A stretch of DNA of 64,000 nucleotides, taken from Primorskyibacter aestuariivivens (GTDB lineage Bacteria > Pseudomonadota > Alphaproteobacteria > Rhodobacterales > Rhodobacteraceae). The stretch covers positions 1 to 64,000 of the forward strand of contig NZ_JAQIOZ010000022.1 in assembly GCF_028023675.1 (NCBI RefSeq), in the 5' to 3' direction. Positions 22,763-28,781 of this stretch are shown piece after piece. The translations under genes and the position numbers were made by a program. Every line of letters begins with the position of its first letter. Position 1 is the first letter of the stretch. The notes beneath the pieces are model-generated. The model saw only the letters and a program-made list of their open reading frames with translations. It did no database searches and was not told the DNA's origin.

Positions 22763-23467
22763 TCAGCTCCATGCCACATCGCCAAGAAAGATGTAGCCAG
22801 CGCCATAGATCGTCTTGATCAGGCGCGGATTCTTGGGGTCTTCGCCCAGCTTGGTGCGCAGCCGCGAGATGCGTACATCCATCGCCCGGTCAAAACTTTC
22901 GCCCGCCGCGCCGCCCAGCGTTTCCTGCATCTGTTGTCGGCTGATCAGTCGGCGGGGGCTTTCGAGGAACATCCGCAGAACCTCGCCCTCGGCATGGCTG
23001 AAACTGCCCTCGGTCCCGTCGTCGCTGCGCAGAGTATAGGCATCGAAATCTGCCTCCCAGCCATTGAAGCGGGCGATGCGGCGGTTCTGCACCTTGGGCT
23101 GAGAGGATCGCAGCCGGGCGCGGATGCGCGCCACGACTTCGGACGGGTCAAAGGGTTTGATGATGTAATCATCCGCGCCCAGTTCCAGCCCGGTGATCCG
23201 GTCCTGCACCTGGGCTCGTCCGGAAATGATGATGACCGTTGCCCCCTGTTCCAGCGCAAGCCGGTGTACCAGAGACAACCCGTCCCGATCCGGCAGGCCA
23301 AGATCGACCAGACAGACATCCGGCGTTGTCGTCCGCAACGCGGCTTCGAATTCCGTGGCGCGCGCAAAACTCAGTGTGCGGAACCCGGCCTCTTCCAGCG
23401 TGTCGGCCAGCAGGCGGCGAATGTCCGGTTCGTCGTCAAGGATGGTGACAAGCGGTTGATCAGTCAT
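22763..23467 (-). CDS. OmpR-family response regulator
   Basis: A 234-residue two-component regulator. The receiver domain (about 1-120) has the acidic pair in LDDEPD, the phosphorylation site Asp55 (VDLGLPDRDGLS), and the conserved Lys in IIKPFDPSEV. A winged-helix DNA-binding domain of the OmpR/PhoB type fills about 140-232 (RISRLRTKLGEDPKNPRLIKTIYGAGYIF). The start overlaps the 3' end of the hybrid kinase gene by 8 bp, so the two are translationally coupled and form one signalling pair. Confidence 0.93.
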   Translation of the reverse strand: MTDQPLVTILDDEPDIRRLLADTLEEAGFRTLSFARATEFEAALRTTTPDVCLVDLGLPDRDGLSLVHRLALEQGATVIIISGRAQVQDRITGLELGADDYIIKPFDPSEVVARIRARLRSSQPKVQNRRIARFNGWEADFDAYTLRSDDGTEGSFSHAEGEVLRMFLESPRRLISRQQMQETLGGAAGESFDRAMDVRISRLRTKLGEDPKNPRLIKTIYGAGYIFLGDVAWS

Positions 23468-25373
23468 GATGTGCCTTGGCGGTGTGCAGCGCGGCGGCGA
23501 GTTGAACCGCGTCAAAAGGTTTGTGGAGGAGCGGCCCGCGCTGGGCGGCCATCTCTGCCAGATCATGGGTTCGGGGCAAAGAGGTCATCAATGCCGTTGG
23601 CAACGGGGCCACCATGCGGGACAGATCAAGCCCGGTCTCAACCCCTTCAAGCTGAATGTCGGACAGGACCGCAGTGATATCGGGCAACCCGGCCACCAGC
23701 GCCGTGGCCTCAGGCACGGATGCGGCTTCGACAACCTGATGGCCCATGCCGGTCAGCATTTCCCGGACACTGTCGCGCAGGTCGGGGTTGTCTTCGACCA
23801 GAAGGATCAGATCGGGCTGCATGGTGCTGGGCAGGTCCGCGGGACGCAGGGGCAACCGGATGGTGACGCGCGCACCGGTCTGGCCATTGGCAAGGCGAAC
23901 CTCGCCCCCGGCCAGCTTGGTCATGTCGTAAACCATGGCGAGGCCCAGCCCTGATCCTTCGCCGCCCTTGGTGGTAAAAAACGGGGCCAACCCGTCGCGC
24001 AGGGCCTGTTCCGTGAACCCGGGCCCGGTATCGGAGACTTCAAAGGTCAGCCAGGTGCCGGTTTCCTCCCGCACGGTCAAGGTGATGGTTCCGCTGTCGC
24101 CGCAGGCGTCCCGCGCGTTCAGGACAAGGTTCAGCAGCGAATCCTGCAACATGCCGGGGTCGAGCGAATGCGCGCCGCCTGCCTGAACATCCAGCGCCAG
24201 GGAAACACCGTCGGGAAGGCTGGGCTTTGCAAGGGTTTGCAGCTCTTCCACGAAAGATGCGACATCCACCGCAGCGGGTGAATACGTCCGGCTGCCGGTC
24301 ATGTCGGCGATGCGGCTGAGCAAACGACCTCCGCGCCGGGCGGCGCCGATGGTGGCGGCGACCAGCGGAGCGGCGTCCGGGGGAAGCGCGTCCATGCGGT
24401 CGAGCTTGGATTGCATGCCAAGGATCACCGTCAACAGGTTGGAGAAATCATGTGCCAGCCCGCTGGTCAGCTGTGCGGCCATTTCCCTACGGCGCGTTTG
24501 TTGAAGGGCGACGCGTGCCTGAGTTTCCTCGGTGATGTCCATCGACAGGATGTAGACCCCGCGCTCACTCTGATCCGGGGTAAAGGACACGCGGATACGG
24601 CGCAGGCTGGGTGTGTCGGTGAACTCGAACACTGACTGCTGGCCGTCATAGGCCGCATCAAGATGGGGTCTGACCTTGTCATAGGCATCGGGGCCAAGCG
24701 CGTCGGAGATGTGCAGGCCCAGGATATTGGAAGGCCTGCCGGGGATGACCGAGCTAAGACGCCGGTTGGAATAGGTATAGCATCCGTTCGCATCCACATG
24801 GGCGATATGGGCGGGCATCATTTCCGTGGTGAGCCGCGTACGGGCCTCAATGGCGCGCAACTGGCGCTGGGTTTCTTCCAGCGCGCTGATCGTGGCGGCC
24901 AGTTCGCGGTTGGTGGCGGCCAGTTCCTCGGACCGGCGCAGCACCTCTTCCGAGAGCAGCTCGGAGCGGGTGCGCAACAGCTCTTCCTGCTGCTTTGTGC
25001 GGGTGATGTCGGTATAGACGGTGACCCAGCCGCCCTGCGGCAGCGGTGCACCCTCGACCGAGAGCCATTTGCCGCCCGCGCGCGGCCGCTCCATGTAATG
25101 CGGCTCAAAGGCGCGGGCCTGGTCTTCGCGCTGGGCGACGAATTCCTCGATATCGTCGATCTCGCCATATTCGCCGCTTTTGGCCAGATGGCGGACCGTG
25201 TCGGCAAAGCGGGCACCGGGGGTGACCAGCGCTTCGGGGAGGTTGAACATTTCCTGAAAACGCCGGTTGCACTGGGCCAGCCGCAGATCGCTGTCATAGA
25301 TCGACAGGGCCTGCTGGATGAGATTGAGACCGGCCTGCGTCAGGTCGGACAATTGCTTGTCGGACAGGTCCAT
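23460..25373 (-). CDS. PAS-domain hybrid histidine kinase
   Basis: A 637-residue cytoplasmic sensor kinase without membrane helices. Domains: PAS_7-type PAS (about 12-125), a coiled coil (about 127-180), a second PAS (180-285), the phosphoacceptor region with His308 in LAHDFSNLL, the ATPase (N box LVLNARDAC, G boxes SDTGPGF and GEGSGLGLAM), and a C-terminal receiver (Glu527/Asp528, phospho-Asp572). Signal therefore passes from His308 to Asp572 and probably on to the coupled OmpR regulator. The membrane-bound ETR1-like kinase is directly upstream in the same orientation. Confidence 0.92.
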   Translation of the reverse strand: MDLSDKQLSDLTQAGLNLIQQALSIYDSDLRLAQCNRRFQEMFNLPEALVTPGARFADTVRHLAKSGEYGEIDDIEEFVAQREDQARAFEPHYMERPRAGGKWLSVEGAPLPQGGWVTVYTDITRTKQQEELLRTRSELLSEEVLRRSEELAATNRELAATISALEETQRQLRAIEARTRLTTEMMPAHIAHVDANGCYTYSNRRLSSVIPGRPSNILGLHISDALGPDAYDKVRPHLDAAYDGQQSVFEFTDTPSLRRIRVSFTPDQSERGVYILSMDITEETQARVALQQTRRREMAAQLTSGLAHDFSNLLTVILGMQSKLDRMDALPPDAAPLVAATIGAARRGGRLLSRIADMTGSRTYSPAAVDVASFVEELQTLAKPSLPDGVSLALDVQAGGAHSLDPGMLQDSLLNLVLNARDACGDSGTITLTVREETGTWLTFEVSDTGPGFTEQALRDGLAPFFTTKGGEGSGLGLAMVYDMTKLAGGEVRLANGQTGARVTIRLPLRPADLPSTMQPDLILLVEDNPDLRDSVREMLTGMGHQVVEAASVPEATALVAGLPDITAVLSDIQLEGVETGLDLSRMVAPLPTALMTSLPRTHDLAEMAAQRGPLLHKPFDAVQLAAALHTAKAHHD

Positions 25374-25420: not shown

Positions 25421-26575
25421 TCAACTCTGACCCTGCGGCGCGATCCGCTCAAGCGGCAGGGACAGGGAATAAGCCAGCGCGCCGGTGGAAAAATCCGCAT
25501 CGGCCTGCCCCCCGAGCCGCTGCGGCACGACAAGGTTGAGCACACGCGAGCCATAGCCGAACCCGGTTTCGGGCGGCGCGGTCGTGGTTGTGGCGGGAAC
25601 CGCCTCCGGGCGCGTCTCGATCCATTGCAGGTCAAGCTGCGGCGGCTGCCCCATCTCGCCCCCGGTTCGGTCCCAACGCAGATAGACCTTTCCGTCATCA
25701 TCGCGCAATGCGCCATGTTTCACCGAATTGGTTGCCAGCTCGTCCAGAGCAAGGGCGATTTGCCGGGCGGCTTCGGAGTTCAGGTCTTCATCATCACCCT
25801 GGATGGAAATCCGGTTGGGAAAGGCTTCAAGATGCGCGCGCAGCTGGTGACGGGCCAGTTTCAACAGGCTGTGCGGTAGGCGTTGACCGCCCCGGGTCAG
25901 ATCGTCGGTGGTGGCGGCCATGGCGTCCAGCCGTGCCAGGAACCGGTCGAGAAAATCCTCCTTGTCGCCGCTGTGCTGCGCGGTCTGGCGCGCCAGTGCG
26001 GCGGTCACCTGCGCCAGATTGTCGGCCCGGTGTCCGGCCTGTCGCAAGACGATGTTGAGCTCTTCATTGGTGCGGGCCAGTTCCCGGGTGCGCTCGGCCA
26101 CGGTATCTTCCAGCGCGTCGCGGGCCCGGCGCAGATCGGCCAGCGTATCCTCATGCGCGGCGATTTCGGCGCTCAGCTTGGCGTTTGCGTCGCGCAGATG
26201 CGCGGGCGAGGGCAGGGCGATGATCCGGGGAACCAACGGAAACAGCACAGCAGCGGTCACAAGCGAGACAATACCGGTCGCCAGCTTGGCCAGCCCATGC
26301 AGCGCATAGACCGGCACCCAAAGCGTGACAATCGAGATCAGGTGGGTCAACCCGCACAGCGCGATGAACGCGGCAAACAGCCAAGCCAGCCCGCGGTTTT
26401 CCAGATCGGGGCGGCCACGCATCACGCGGTAGATGGCAACCGGAATAATTGAATAGGCCATGAAGATCAGGAAATCCGAGCCCGCAAAAAGCGCAATGAG
26501 CCAAGGTTGCCACAAAAGGCACATGCCATGCGCCATGTAGCCCAGATCCTGAAAGAAGGTGATTGCAGCTTGCAT
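25421..26575 (-). CDS. Histidine kinase with an ETR1-like ethylene-binding membrane domain
   Basis: A 384-residue sensor. Three N-terminal helices (about 25-119) match the copper/ethylene-binding domain of plant ETR1 and cyanobacterial Etr1. Asp34, Tyr41, Pro45, Ile71, Cys74 and His78 correspond to ETR1 Asp25, Tyr32, Pro36, Ile62, Cys65 and His69, every one offset by nine. The Cys and His bind Cu(I) in ETR1. A coiled coil (about 127-177) leads to an HWE/HisKA_2-type kinase with candidate phospho-His182 (QAGHRADNL), the N box ALDELATNSVKHGA, and LQWIE. It has no receiver of its own. Start 26575 is chosen over an ATG at 26641 that would lie upstream of the regulatory dyad. Confidence 0.85.
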   Translation of the reverse strand: MQAAITFFQDLGYMAHGMCLLWQPWLIALFAGSDFLIFMAYSIIPVAIYRVMRGRPDLENRGLAWLFAAFIALCGLTHLISIVTLWVPVYALHGLAKLATGIVSLVTAAVLFPLVPRIIALPSPAHLRDANAKLSAEIAAHEDTLADLRRARDALEDTVAERTRELARTNEELNIVLRQAGHRADNLAQVTAALARQTAQHSGDKEDFLDRFLARLDAMAATTDDLTRGGQRLPHSLLKLARHQLRAHLEAFPNRISIQGDDEDLNSEAARQIALALDELATNSVKHGALRDDDGKVYLRWDRTGGEMGQPPQLDLQWIETRPEAVPATTTTAPPETGFGYGSRVLNLVVPQRLGGQADADFSTGALAYSLSLPLERIAPQGQS

Positions 26576-26622: not shown

Positions 26623-26647
26623 TTAAGAGGTGGTTAACCATGCTTAA
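26623..26647. promoter_or_regulatory. CtrA-like box TTAA-N7-TTAA with a third half-site
   Basis: TTAA (26623-26626), seven bases, TTAA (26634-26637) is the full CtrA consensus known from Alphaproteobacteria. A third TTAAC starts at 26644. The box lies 48 to 72 bases upstream of the ETR1-like kinase start on its minus-strand side. Confidence 0.5.
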
Positions 26648-26680
26648 CGTCGTGGAGCGGCGGCGGGAGAGCGCTTGTTA

Positions 26681-26696
26681 CAATTCGTAAGAATTG
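26681..26696. promoter_or_regulatory. Dyad CAATTC-GTAA-GAATTG in the divergent promoter region
   Basis: A perfect 6-bp inverted repeat with a 4-base spacer, located between the ETR1-like kinase gene and the acyl-CoA ligase operon. Its size fits a dimeric repressor site. The binding protein is unknown. Confidence 0.4.
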
Positions 26697-26807
26697 GGAA
26701 ATGTTCAGGAAAAAGTTGACCCCCAGCGTAACCCCTGACCAAATGATGCTCAGAATCGCATGTAAGCGGTCCGCCCCGGGGGAGACGGGGCAAAGGGAGG
26801 ACATAGA

Positions 26808-28781
26808 TTGGCTCAGAATGCTGAGGGCGTGGAAGGTCTGCGCTCTGTACCGGCGCTGTTGAAGCGCAATGCAACGCAATTTTCAAACTCGCCCGCCTAT
26901 CGCGAGAAGGAATACGGGATCTGGCAAAGCTGGACCTGGTCCGAGGCGGAAAAGGAAATCGAAGCGCTGGCGCTGGGGCTGTTGAACCTTGGCGTGAACG
27001 AAGGCGATTTCATCGCCGTTATCGGGCGCAACCGGCCCTACCTTTATTGGTCCATGGTGGCTGCGCAGTCCGTGGGGGCCGTGCCCGTGCCGCTGTATCA
27101 GGATTCGGTGGCCGAAGAGATGGAATATGTGCTGTCCCATTGCGGCGCGCGGTTCGTCATCGTGGCCGACCAGGAGCAGGTGGACAAGGTGATCGAAGTG
27201 CAGGAGCACCTGCACCAGTTCGAGCACATGATCTATATCGATCCGCGCGGATTGCGGAAATACGACCATTCCCGACTGCATCAGTTTTCCCATGTGCAGG
27301 ATCAGGGCCGTGCCGCCCGTGACGAACACATCAAGGAACTGGATCGTCGCCGTGGCGGGCTTGGCTATGACGATACCTGCGTCATGCTTTACACCTCGGG
27401 GACTACGGGCAAGCCCAAGGGCGTGGTTCTTTCCAACCGCAATATCATCGAGACGGCCAAGAATTCATCCGAATTTGACCACCTGCGCGAAGGCGACGAG
27501 GTGCTGGCCTATCTCCCCATGGCCTGGGTTGGCGATTTCATCTTTTCCATTGGTCAGGCCTATTGGACCGGGTTCTGCGTGAATTGTCCCGAAAGCGCGG
27601 ACACGATGATGACGGACCTGCGCGAGATTGCGCCCAGCTATTATTTCGCGCCGCCAAGGGTGTTCGAGACGCAGCTGACATCGATCATGATCCGCATGGA
27701 AGATGCCAGCCCGCTCAAGCGCAGGATCTTCCAATATTTCATGAACCACGCGCGCGAGGTCGGTCCTAAGATACTGGACGGGCATTCTGTCGGGACGTTG
27801 GACCGGATCAAATACGCGCTGGGCGAATTCATGGTCTATGGTCCGCTCAAGAATGCGCTGGGCTTTTCCAAGGTGCGTGTGGGCTATACGGCGGGCGAAG
27901 CCATTGGCCCGGAAATCTTTGATTTCTATCGCGCATTGGGCATCAACCTGAAGCAGCTCTATGGCCAGACCGAAGCCTCGGTCTTTATCACCCAGCAGCC
28001 CGATGGCGAAGTCCGCTCGGACACGGTGGGCGTGCCATCCCCGGGGGTAGAGATCAAAATCGCCGAGAATGGCGAGGTGTTCTACCGCTCGCCCGGCACC
28101 TTTGTGGAATATTACAAGAACGCCGAGAGCACCGCGGACACCAAGGACGCTGAGGGCTGGGTGGCCACGGGTGATGCCGGGTTCTTTGAACCCGATACCG
28201 GGCATCTGCGCATCATCGACCGGGCCAAGGATGTGGGCAACATGGCCGATGGCGCGATGTTTGCGCCGAAATACGTTGAGAACAAGCTGAAGTTCTTCCC
28301 CAATATCCTTGAGGTGGTGGTGTTTGGCGCAGGCCGCGACAAGTGCTGTGCCTTTATCAATATTGACCTGACAGCCGTGGGCAACTGGGCCGAGCGCAAC
28401 AATATCGCCTATGCCTCCTATCAGGAACTGGCGGGGCATCCCAAGGTTCTGGACATGATCCAGTCCCATGTTGAGGACACCAATGCATCCGTGGCCGAGG
28501 ATGAGATGCTCTCGGGCTGTCAGATCCACCGCTTCCTAGTGCTGCACAAGGAACTGGATGCGGATGATGGCGAGTTGACCCGGACCCGCAAGGTGCGCCG
28601 CAAGATCATTGGCGAGAAGTTCGAGGATCTGGTGAACGCGCTCTATGACGGGTCGACATCGGTCTATACCGAGACAGAAGTGACCTATGAGGATGGGCGC
28701 AAGGGCAAGATCAAGGCGACGCTGGAAATCCGCGACGCCAAGGTTGTGCCGGTCACCCCCAAAGCGGTGGCGGCGGAATGA
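26808..28781 (+). CDS. Long-chain-type acyl-CoA ligase (AMP-binding)
   Basis: A 657-residue ANL-superfamily enzyme activating a carboxylic acid to its acyl-CoA through an acyl-AMP. The P-loop-like motif YTSGTTGKPKG is at 195-205, the adenylate motif around YGQTEASVF, and the hinge WVATGDAGFFEPDTGHLRIIDR. It resembles FadD15/FAA-type long ligases. A TTG start at 26808 is supported by AGGGAGG seven bases upstream. It heads a transporter operon with LivG-H-M and a binding protein, so its substrate is probably what that system imports. Confidence 0.9.
   Translation: MAQNAEGVEGLRSVPALLKRNATQFSNSPAYREKEYGIWQSWTWSEAEKEIEALALGLLNLGVNEGDFIAVIGRNRPYLYWSMVAAQSVGAVPVPLYQDSVAEEMEYVLSHCGARFVIVADQEQVDKVIEVQEHLHQFEHMIYIDPRGLRKYDHSRLHQFSHVQDQGRAARDEHIKELDRRRGGLGYDDTCVMLYTSGTTGKPKGVVLSNRNIIETAKNSSEFDHLREGDEVLAYLPMAWVGDFIFSIGQAYWTGFCVNCPESADTMMTDLREIAPSYYFAPPRVFETQLTSIMIRMEDASPLKRRIFQYFMNHAREVGPKILDGHSVGTLDRIKYALGEFMVYGPLKNALGFSKVRVGYTAGEAIGPEIFDFYRALGINLKQLYGQTEASVFITQQPDGEVRSDTVGVPSPGVEIKIAENGEVFYRSPGTFVEYYKNAESTADTKDAEGWVATGDAGFFEPDTGHLRIIDRAKDVGNMADGAMFAPKYVENKLKFFPNILEVVVFGAGRDKCCAFINIDLTAVGNWAERNNIAYASYQELAGHPKVLDMIQSHVEDTNASVAEDEMLSGCQIHRFLVLHKELDADDGELTRTRKVRRKIIGEKFEDLVNALYDGSTSVYTETEVTYEDGRKGKIKATLEIRDAKVVPVTPKAVAAE

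Follow-up and report, generated by a model that had tools for sequence, protein, structure and literature searches.

A predicted ethylene-receptor-type sensor kinase with an HWE-like kinase half in Primorskyibacter aestuariivivens, probably added as the leading gene of an older signalling operon

The ethylene receptors of plants are traced back to bacterial two-component sensors; as dimers they are linked by a Cys4/Cys6 pair. To our knowledge, few bacterial ethylene receptors have been assayed, and the published proteobacterial case, AzoEtr1 of Azospirillum brasilense, is plant-associated. The residues of Arabidopsis ETR1 required for ethylene binding were reportedly established by Wang et al. 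in 2006. ETR1 carries one Cu(I) per monomer, at C65/H69 (PMC6586836), and lists of its required residues are available (PMC11819568, PMC6586836). AzoEtr1 and SynEtr1 of Synechocystis both bind ethylene and act as two-component receptors, SynEtr1 being a sensor of light as well (PMC11819568).

We compared with these systems a gene in a 64,000-nucleotide stretch of Primorskyibacter aestuariivivens DNA (assembly GCF_028023675.1, contig NZ_JAQIOZ010000022.1, positions 1 to 64,000), hereafter the window; its genome is designated G000. The reading frame, 384 codons from an ATG at 26575 to a stop codon at 25421-25423, lies where a sequence-only reading of the same DNA had placed it (Table 1). There is a second in-frame ATG upstream, at 26641; the starts of homologues correspond to the near ATG. 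The codons of C74, H78 and H182 were confirmed in the raw sequence. The product is called here the EBD kinase, for its ethylene-binding domain (EBD).

The Pfam profile ETR1_N (PF25487) matches residues 26-121 over nearly its whole length (positions 2-97 of 97) and exceeds its curated cut-off of 27 with 102.9 bits (E=1.2e-29). It is the sole Pfam family matched by residues 1-125. Compared by BLAST with the N-terminus of ETR1, in a query that carries the published residue numbers, the protein is 32% identical across 110 residues (E=6e-12). All seven ethylene-binding residues of ETR1 have counterparts, D34, Y41, I44, P45, I71, C74 and H78 corresponding to D25, Y32, I35, P36, I62, C65 and H69. The sequence-only reading had listed D34, Y41, P45, I71, C74 and H78, each nine residues on from its ETR1 equivalent; the alignment confirms this offset, and I44 completes the set. 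Its expectation that a profile search would return a specific ethylene-receptor match with every pocket residue aligned was borne out as well. The helix-3 lysine is also present: K97 is equivalent to ETR1 K91 and AzoEtr1 K98 and is invariant in A1 and A2. A loop with three residues fewer between helices 2 and 3 reduces its offset from ETR1 from nine to six. In AzoEtr1, the counterparts of D34, C74 and H78 are D35, C75 and H79.

An AlphaFold model, built on a thin alignment, places helices at residues 24-54, 61-83 and 91-120, followed by a single long helix (124-201) and the kinase core. Three N-terminal transmembrane helices and a helical linker are thereby predicted with moderate confidence. 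Since the mean pLDDT is a modest 62, reaching about 80 in most of the three-helix part and in the first half of helix 124-201, the model supports the topology only. In a sequence-level comparison, none of the solved structures matched the EBD. It appears as good as settled from the profile and alignment that the N-terminus of the EBD kinase belongs to the ethylene-receptor sensor family. Binding of Cu(I) and ethylene is likely by the precedent of SynEtr1, AzoEtr1 and ETR1.

Table 1. Coordinates of the EBD kinase gene, its domains and the neighbouring features in the window
Feature	Position	Strand	Basis or remark
EBD / HWE-like sensor kinase gene, 384 aa	25421..26575	minus	ETR1_N 102.9 bits, HWE_HK 43.1 bits
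Ethylene-receptor-type three-helix membrane domain, residues 1-122	26210..26575	minus	profile, pocket alignment, predicted model
Pocket codons	D34 26474-26476; C74 26354-26356; H78 26342-26344; K97 26285-26287	minus	
Other pocket residues of the membrane domain: Y41, I44, P45, I71			
Long coiled-coil helix, sensor-to-kinase linker, residues 124-181	26033..26206	minus	predicted model
HWE-like phospho-acceptor domain, residues 182-262	25790..26032	minus	HWE_HK match
H182 of the HRADN motif	26030-26032	minus	H-box
ATP-binding domain, residues 263-380	25436..25789	minus	N-box LDELATN, QWIE, G-box GYGSR
Hybrid histidine kinase, PAS_7-PAS_4-HATPase-receiver	23460..25373	minus	Pfam; in about half of the family
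OmpR-type response regulator	22763..23467	minus	overlaps the hybrid-kinase stop by 8 bp
Acyl-CoA synthetase-like (AMP-binding) gene, divergent	26808..28781	plus	flank defining the insertion site
Conserved control box between the divergent genes	26664..26752	.	intergenic comparison
Palindrome CTTACGAATTGTAAC inside the control box	26677-26691		minus-strand reading

The likeness to ETR1 thus covers the three-helix sensor, the seven ethylene-binding residues and the helix-3 lysine. Missing here are the N-terminal Cys4/Cys6 pair and the GAF domain, and the kinase is HWE-like where that of ETR1 is of the HisKA type. AzoEtr1 shares an alphaproteobacterial EBD and a response regulator gene just downstream. 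However, a PAS domain separates its sensor from its kinase, an element absent from the EBD kinase with its HWE-like kinase half, and the hybrid kinase and OmpR-type regulator downstream of the EBD kinase occur without the receptor in most relatives. SynEtr1 is likewise an EBD receptor, in its case cyanobacterial and with phosphorelay signalling. Cyanobacterial EBDs are 39-45% identical to that of the EBD kinase over the aligned part; all ten cyanobacterial relatives read DYIAICHK, with Ala where the EBD kinase and ETR1 have Pro. The same two-module layout with a full pocket is found in the EBD-HWE kinase of Blastomonas sp. RAC04 (WP_069049180.1; 39.5% identity over 96% of the protein). Its gene, unlike that of the window, does not lie in a synthetase/hybrid-kinase divergon but on plasmid pBSY18_2, by two single-domain response regulators. 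A site-specific integrase is found beside it (L140:312-4095); the strain, isolated from an algal phycosphere, is the only named relative with an algal background.

ETR1_N domains were detected by the Pfam profile in 16 of 397 Rhodobacteraceae genomes (~4%), in 28 of 385 alphaproteobacteria (~7%) and in 23 of 299 genomes of the phylum, rough fractions drawn from sampled genomes; 14 control genomes gave no match. The sequence-only reading was right that ETR1-like proteins are known from bacteria, functional receptors having been published (PMC11819568), and overrated the surprise of meeting one here. Since ethylene binding by bacterial relatives is already on record, the sensor is of a known kind. 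Within this widely scattered family it is well conserved and unremarkable. The string D-Y-I-P-I-C-H plus K is complete in the EBD kinase and in most of about 75 realigned relatives, of which a minority are degenerate copies. The Cys/His pair, whose absence from close homologues had been named in advance as evidence against the assignment, is conserved in them and in nearly the whole family. Among the degenerate members, those of L027, L028, L068-L071 and L092-L095 lack the pocket Cys, His or Asp and are possibly sensors of other signals.

Within the family of the window, EBD-HWE is the commonest layout (10 of 14 proteins scanned, the other four carrying HisKA). It is rare in the other alphaproteobacteria scanned, where HWE_HK accompanies the EBD in 3 of 24 proteins and HisKA in 18 of 24. 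Most other EBD-HWE genes of the window's family adjoin no receiver gene. In the EBD tree, whose deep forks lack resolution, the window copy groups with two copies from the same genus (98% SH-aLRT), then with that of G267 from another genus (89%), inside a Rhodobacteraceae group (94%). In genome G137 of the same family, the frame of an EBD-HisKA kinase overlaps the next same-strand ORF (469 aa, with a membrane-type N-terminus), which is followed by receiver-type genes (L036:4415-8471). This locus is perhaps a different multi-gene ethylene-type system.

The second half of the protein is matched by HWE_HK from residue 182, right after the linker, to residue 262 (43.1 bits against a cut-off of 22.8). 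This agrees with the earlier description of a coiled coil joined to an HWE-like kinase, as does the predicted helix 124-201. The phospho-acceptor motif HRxxN is present as H182-R-A-D-N and the W-x-E motif of HWE kinases as QWIE; a weak HATPase_c_2 match was also found. The N-box His of HWE kinases (HELATN) is absent, the EBD kinase having DELATN, which is why we call it HWE-like rather than a strict HWE kinase. Seven other Rhodobacteraceae EBD-HWE proteins in the alignment have both HRxxN in the H-box and HELATN in the N-box. The kinase core (residues 166-376) aligns with the blue-light-activated histidine kinases 5epv and 6ph4 (E=4e-14), which differ in their LOV light input and in an N-box of the YELATN/HELATN type found in HWE kinases. 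Matches of residues ~270-335 to antibody structures were discarded as low-scoring chance hits.

Two further genomes of the genus, G002 and G003, encode EBD kinases in which the H-box reads NRGRN and the N-box NELATN. The phospho-acceptor His is replaced by Asn (codons AAC and AAT), while the reading frames are intact and the ATP-site motifs kept. Their copper ligands are intact too, the pocket string being D-F-I-P-I-C-H-K in G002 and D-Y-I-P-I-C-H-K in G003. The two are sisters on the tree (support 100/99). Within the genus, identity is about 70% for the sensor and about 45% for the kinase. Together with the loss of the His from proteins that keep the pocket, this suggests that the sensor is under stronger constraint than the phosphotransfer chemistry. 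With Asn in the acceptor position of these two proteins, receptors of this genus need not act as phosphodonors.

A usual output of alphaproteobacterial HWE kinases is the PhyR/NepR general stress pathway. NepR had no match in the window genome, while the Caulobacter positive control was matched; the pathway is therefore not available to the EBD kinase, and we rejected it as an unlikely output.

The hybrid kinase gene starts 47 bp past the stop of the EBD gene, on the same strand. The divergent acyl-CoA synthetase gene opens a cluster that includes a branched-chain-type ABC transporter (28.8-32.6 kb). We found nothing relevant on this synthetase/transporter/two-component cluster in the open-licence literature. 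In 29 other measurable loci the divergent starts of synthetase and hybrid kinase are 170-676 bp apart (median ~240), and none of these loci has an EBD gene in between. In the window the EBD gene widens this distance to 1,435 bp. The order synthetase, EBD kinase, hybrid kinase, regulator recurs in G002 and G267. G001, of the same genus, lacks an EBD gene and has a plain gap of 275 bp between synthetase and hybrid kinase. The idea that EBD kinase, hybrid kinase and regulator form an obligate three-gene system was abandoned since the hybrid kinase is present in about 47% of the sampled Rhodobacteraceae (70 of 150 genomes of the family) against ~4% for the EBD, and is missing from 8 of 15 EBD-bearing genomes tested. 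These gene orders suggest that the EBD gene was added in front of a pre-existing signalling operon, which most relatives possess without it. The full-length tree, which does not resolve G267, allows either a single insertion and subsequent losses or independent insertions in G000/G002/G003 and in G267.

The control box lies between the synthetase and EBD genes and has been kept upstream of the latter, so that the EBD gene heads the two-component operon, downstream of the box. The palindrome CTTACGAATTGTAAC is found with at most two mismatches in 29 of 36 Rhodobacteraceae synthetase/hybrid-kinase loci (L099-L134). At the same tolerance it has a single match in the window genome, within the control box. 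With one site in the whole genome, a genome-wide regulon was dismissed. The palindrome may instead be an operator for the adjoining regulator, whose two-component system would be one not yet described.

A natural deletion is seen in G003. In length (425 aa) and score its EBD frame equals that of Phaeobacter sp. J2-8, in keeping with the Roseobacter-type assignment of the sequence-only reading. A formate dehydrogenase cluster, the counterpart of 14.1-20.2 kb in the window, borders the EBD gene on one side; on the opposite side lies a homologue of the window gene at 37.2-38.8 kb. Neither the two-component genes nor the synthetase/ABC cluster are found next to it (L030:3408-10225). Indeed, hybrid kinase and synthetase are absent genome-wide at the thresholds used, and the 16 kb sampled around the EBD gene yielded no receiver gene. 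Upstream, the control box survives in decayed form (L030:7971-8005), almost as far from the gene as its counterpart in the window, and none of 2000 shuffles scored as high. The simplest reading is that this EBD gene was formerly part of the divergon and was retained while its neighbours were lost. The adjoining pair is evidently not indispensable, since G003 keeps an intact EBD kinase without hybrid kinase or synthetase. What is most informative, and was missed by the sequence-only reading, is how the gene is placed in its operon and that the sister genomes have lost the phospho-acceptor His.

From its pocket, the EBD kinase is most likely a Cu(I)/ethylene receptor. Its dimers would coordinate Cu(I) in the membrane by means of C74/H78, and this copper would in turn hold ethylene or a closely similar small ligand. 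Ligand binding would shift the helices and the coiled coil and so alter kinase activity. In the window strain the signal would most simply pass to a receiver, either in the adjoining hybrid kinase or in the regulator; local phosphotransfer to this pair is the simplest reading of the operon. This last step, by which the receptor would be connected with the divergent acyl-CoA synthetase and ABC-transporter genes, is the least certain. Taken as a whole, an ETR1-type Cu(I)/ethylene receptor kinase that signals to the adjoining hybrid kinase or regulator is probably the correct account. The Asn-for-His sisters and the G003 locus show that local phosphotransfer cannot be all there is to it in the genus.

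The evidence from the sisters also bears on a rather unlikely reading, in which the receptor of the genus is a pseudokinase or partly decayed and the G000 kinase is on its way out or acts by contact with the hybrid kinase alone. The H-box Asn of G002 and G003, which the tree traces to a single common loss of the His, the replacement of the N-box His by Asp in the window copy and by Asn in the sisters, and the divergence of the kinase parts relative to the sensor all fit it. However, the window copy retains H182, the N-box Asn and the G-box, and the intact frames and ATP-site motifs of the sisters do not look like decay. A quite improbable combination holds that the receptor, inserted between the control box and the first operon gene, controls the resident hybrid kinase by contact as a pseudokinase, so that ethylene would set the uptake and activation of fatty or branched-chain acids. 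Were it true, the ethylene might come, for example, from algae or photochemistry.

The signal itself may be another. Cu(I) could be bound while the physiological ligand is copper or a small pi-ligand other than ethylene (carbon monoxide, acetylene or another alkene). A pocket defined at the sequence level fixes just the copper site and its close surroundings, and the existence of relatives without the Cys or His (L027, L028, L071 and others) means that the fold can do other jobs. We consider this unlikely, since all seven ETR1 ethylene-binding residues are kept, beyond the copper ligands, and the bacterial relatives assayed so far bind ethylene (PMC11819568). It is hardly conceivable that the N-terminus is an unrelated three-helix membrane domain resembling ETR1 by chance, a possibility the sequence-only reading had itself raised: the ETR1_N match is highly significant (E=1.2e-29), other Pfam families are unmatched in the region, and the pocket columns are invariant across Rhodobacteraceae, cyanobacteria and one planctomycete in the alignment. 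This candidate was accordingly rejected, and the copper-bound ethylene receptor remains the preferred reading.

The family is already known in bacteria; its coupling to an HWE-like kinase in an older operon is unusual. Our search of the open-licence literature for ethylene receptors with HWE kinases, or in Roseobacter, returned nothing relevant. If the setting is functionally meaningless, the protein is simply one more bacterial EBD kinase. The genus nevertheless offers a natural wiring series, from no receptor (G001) through a receptor with the phospho-acceptor His (G000) and one without it (G002) to one without either His or operon (G003). A full-pocket receptor in a Roseobacter-type genome, together with the plasmid gene of the same layout in Blastomonas, gives concrete material on which possible ethylene sensing in algal settings can be examined.
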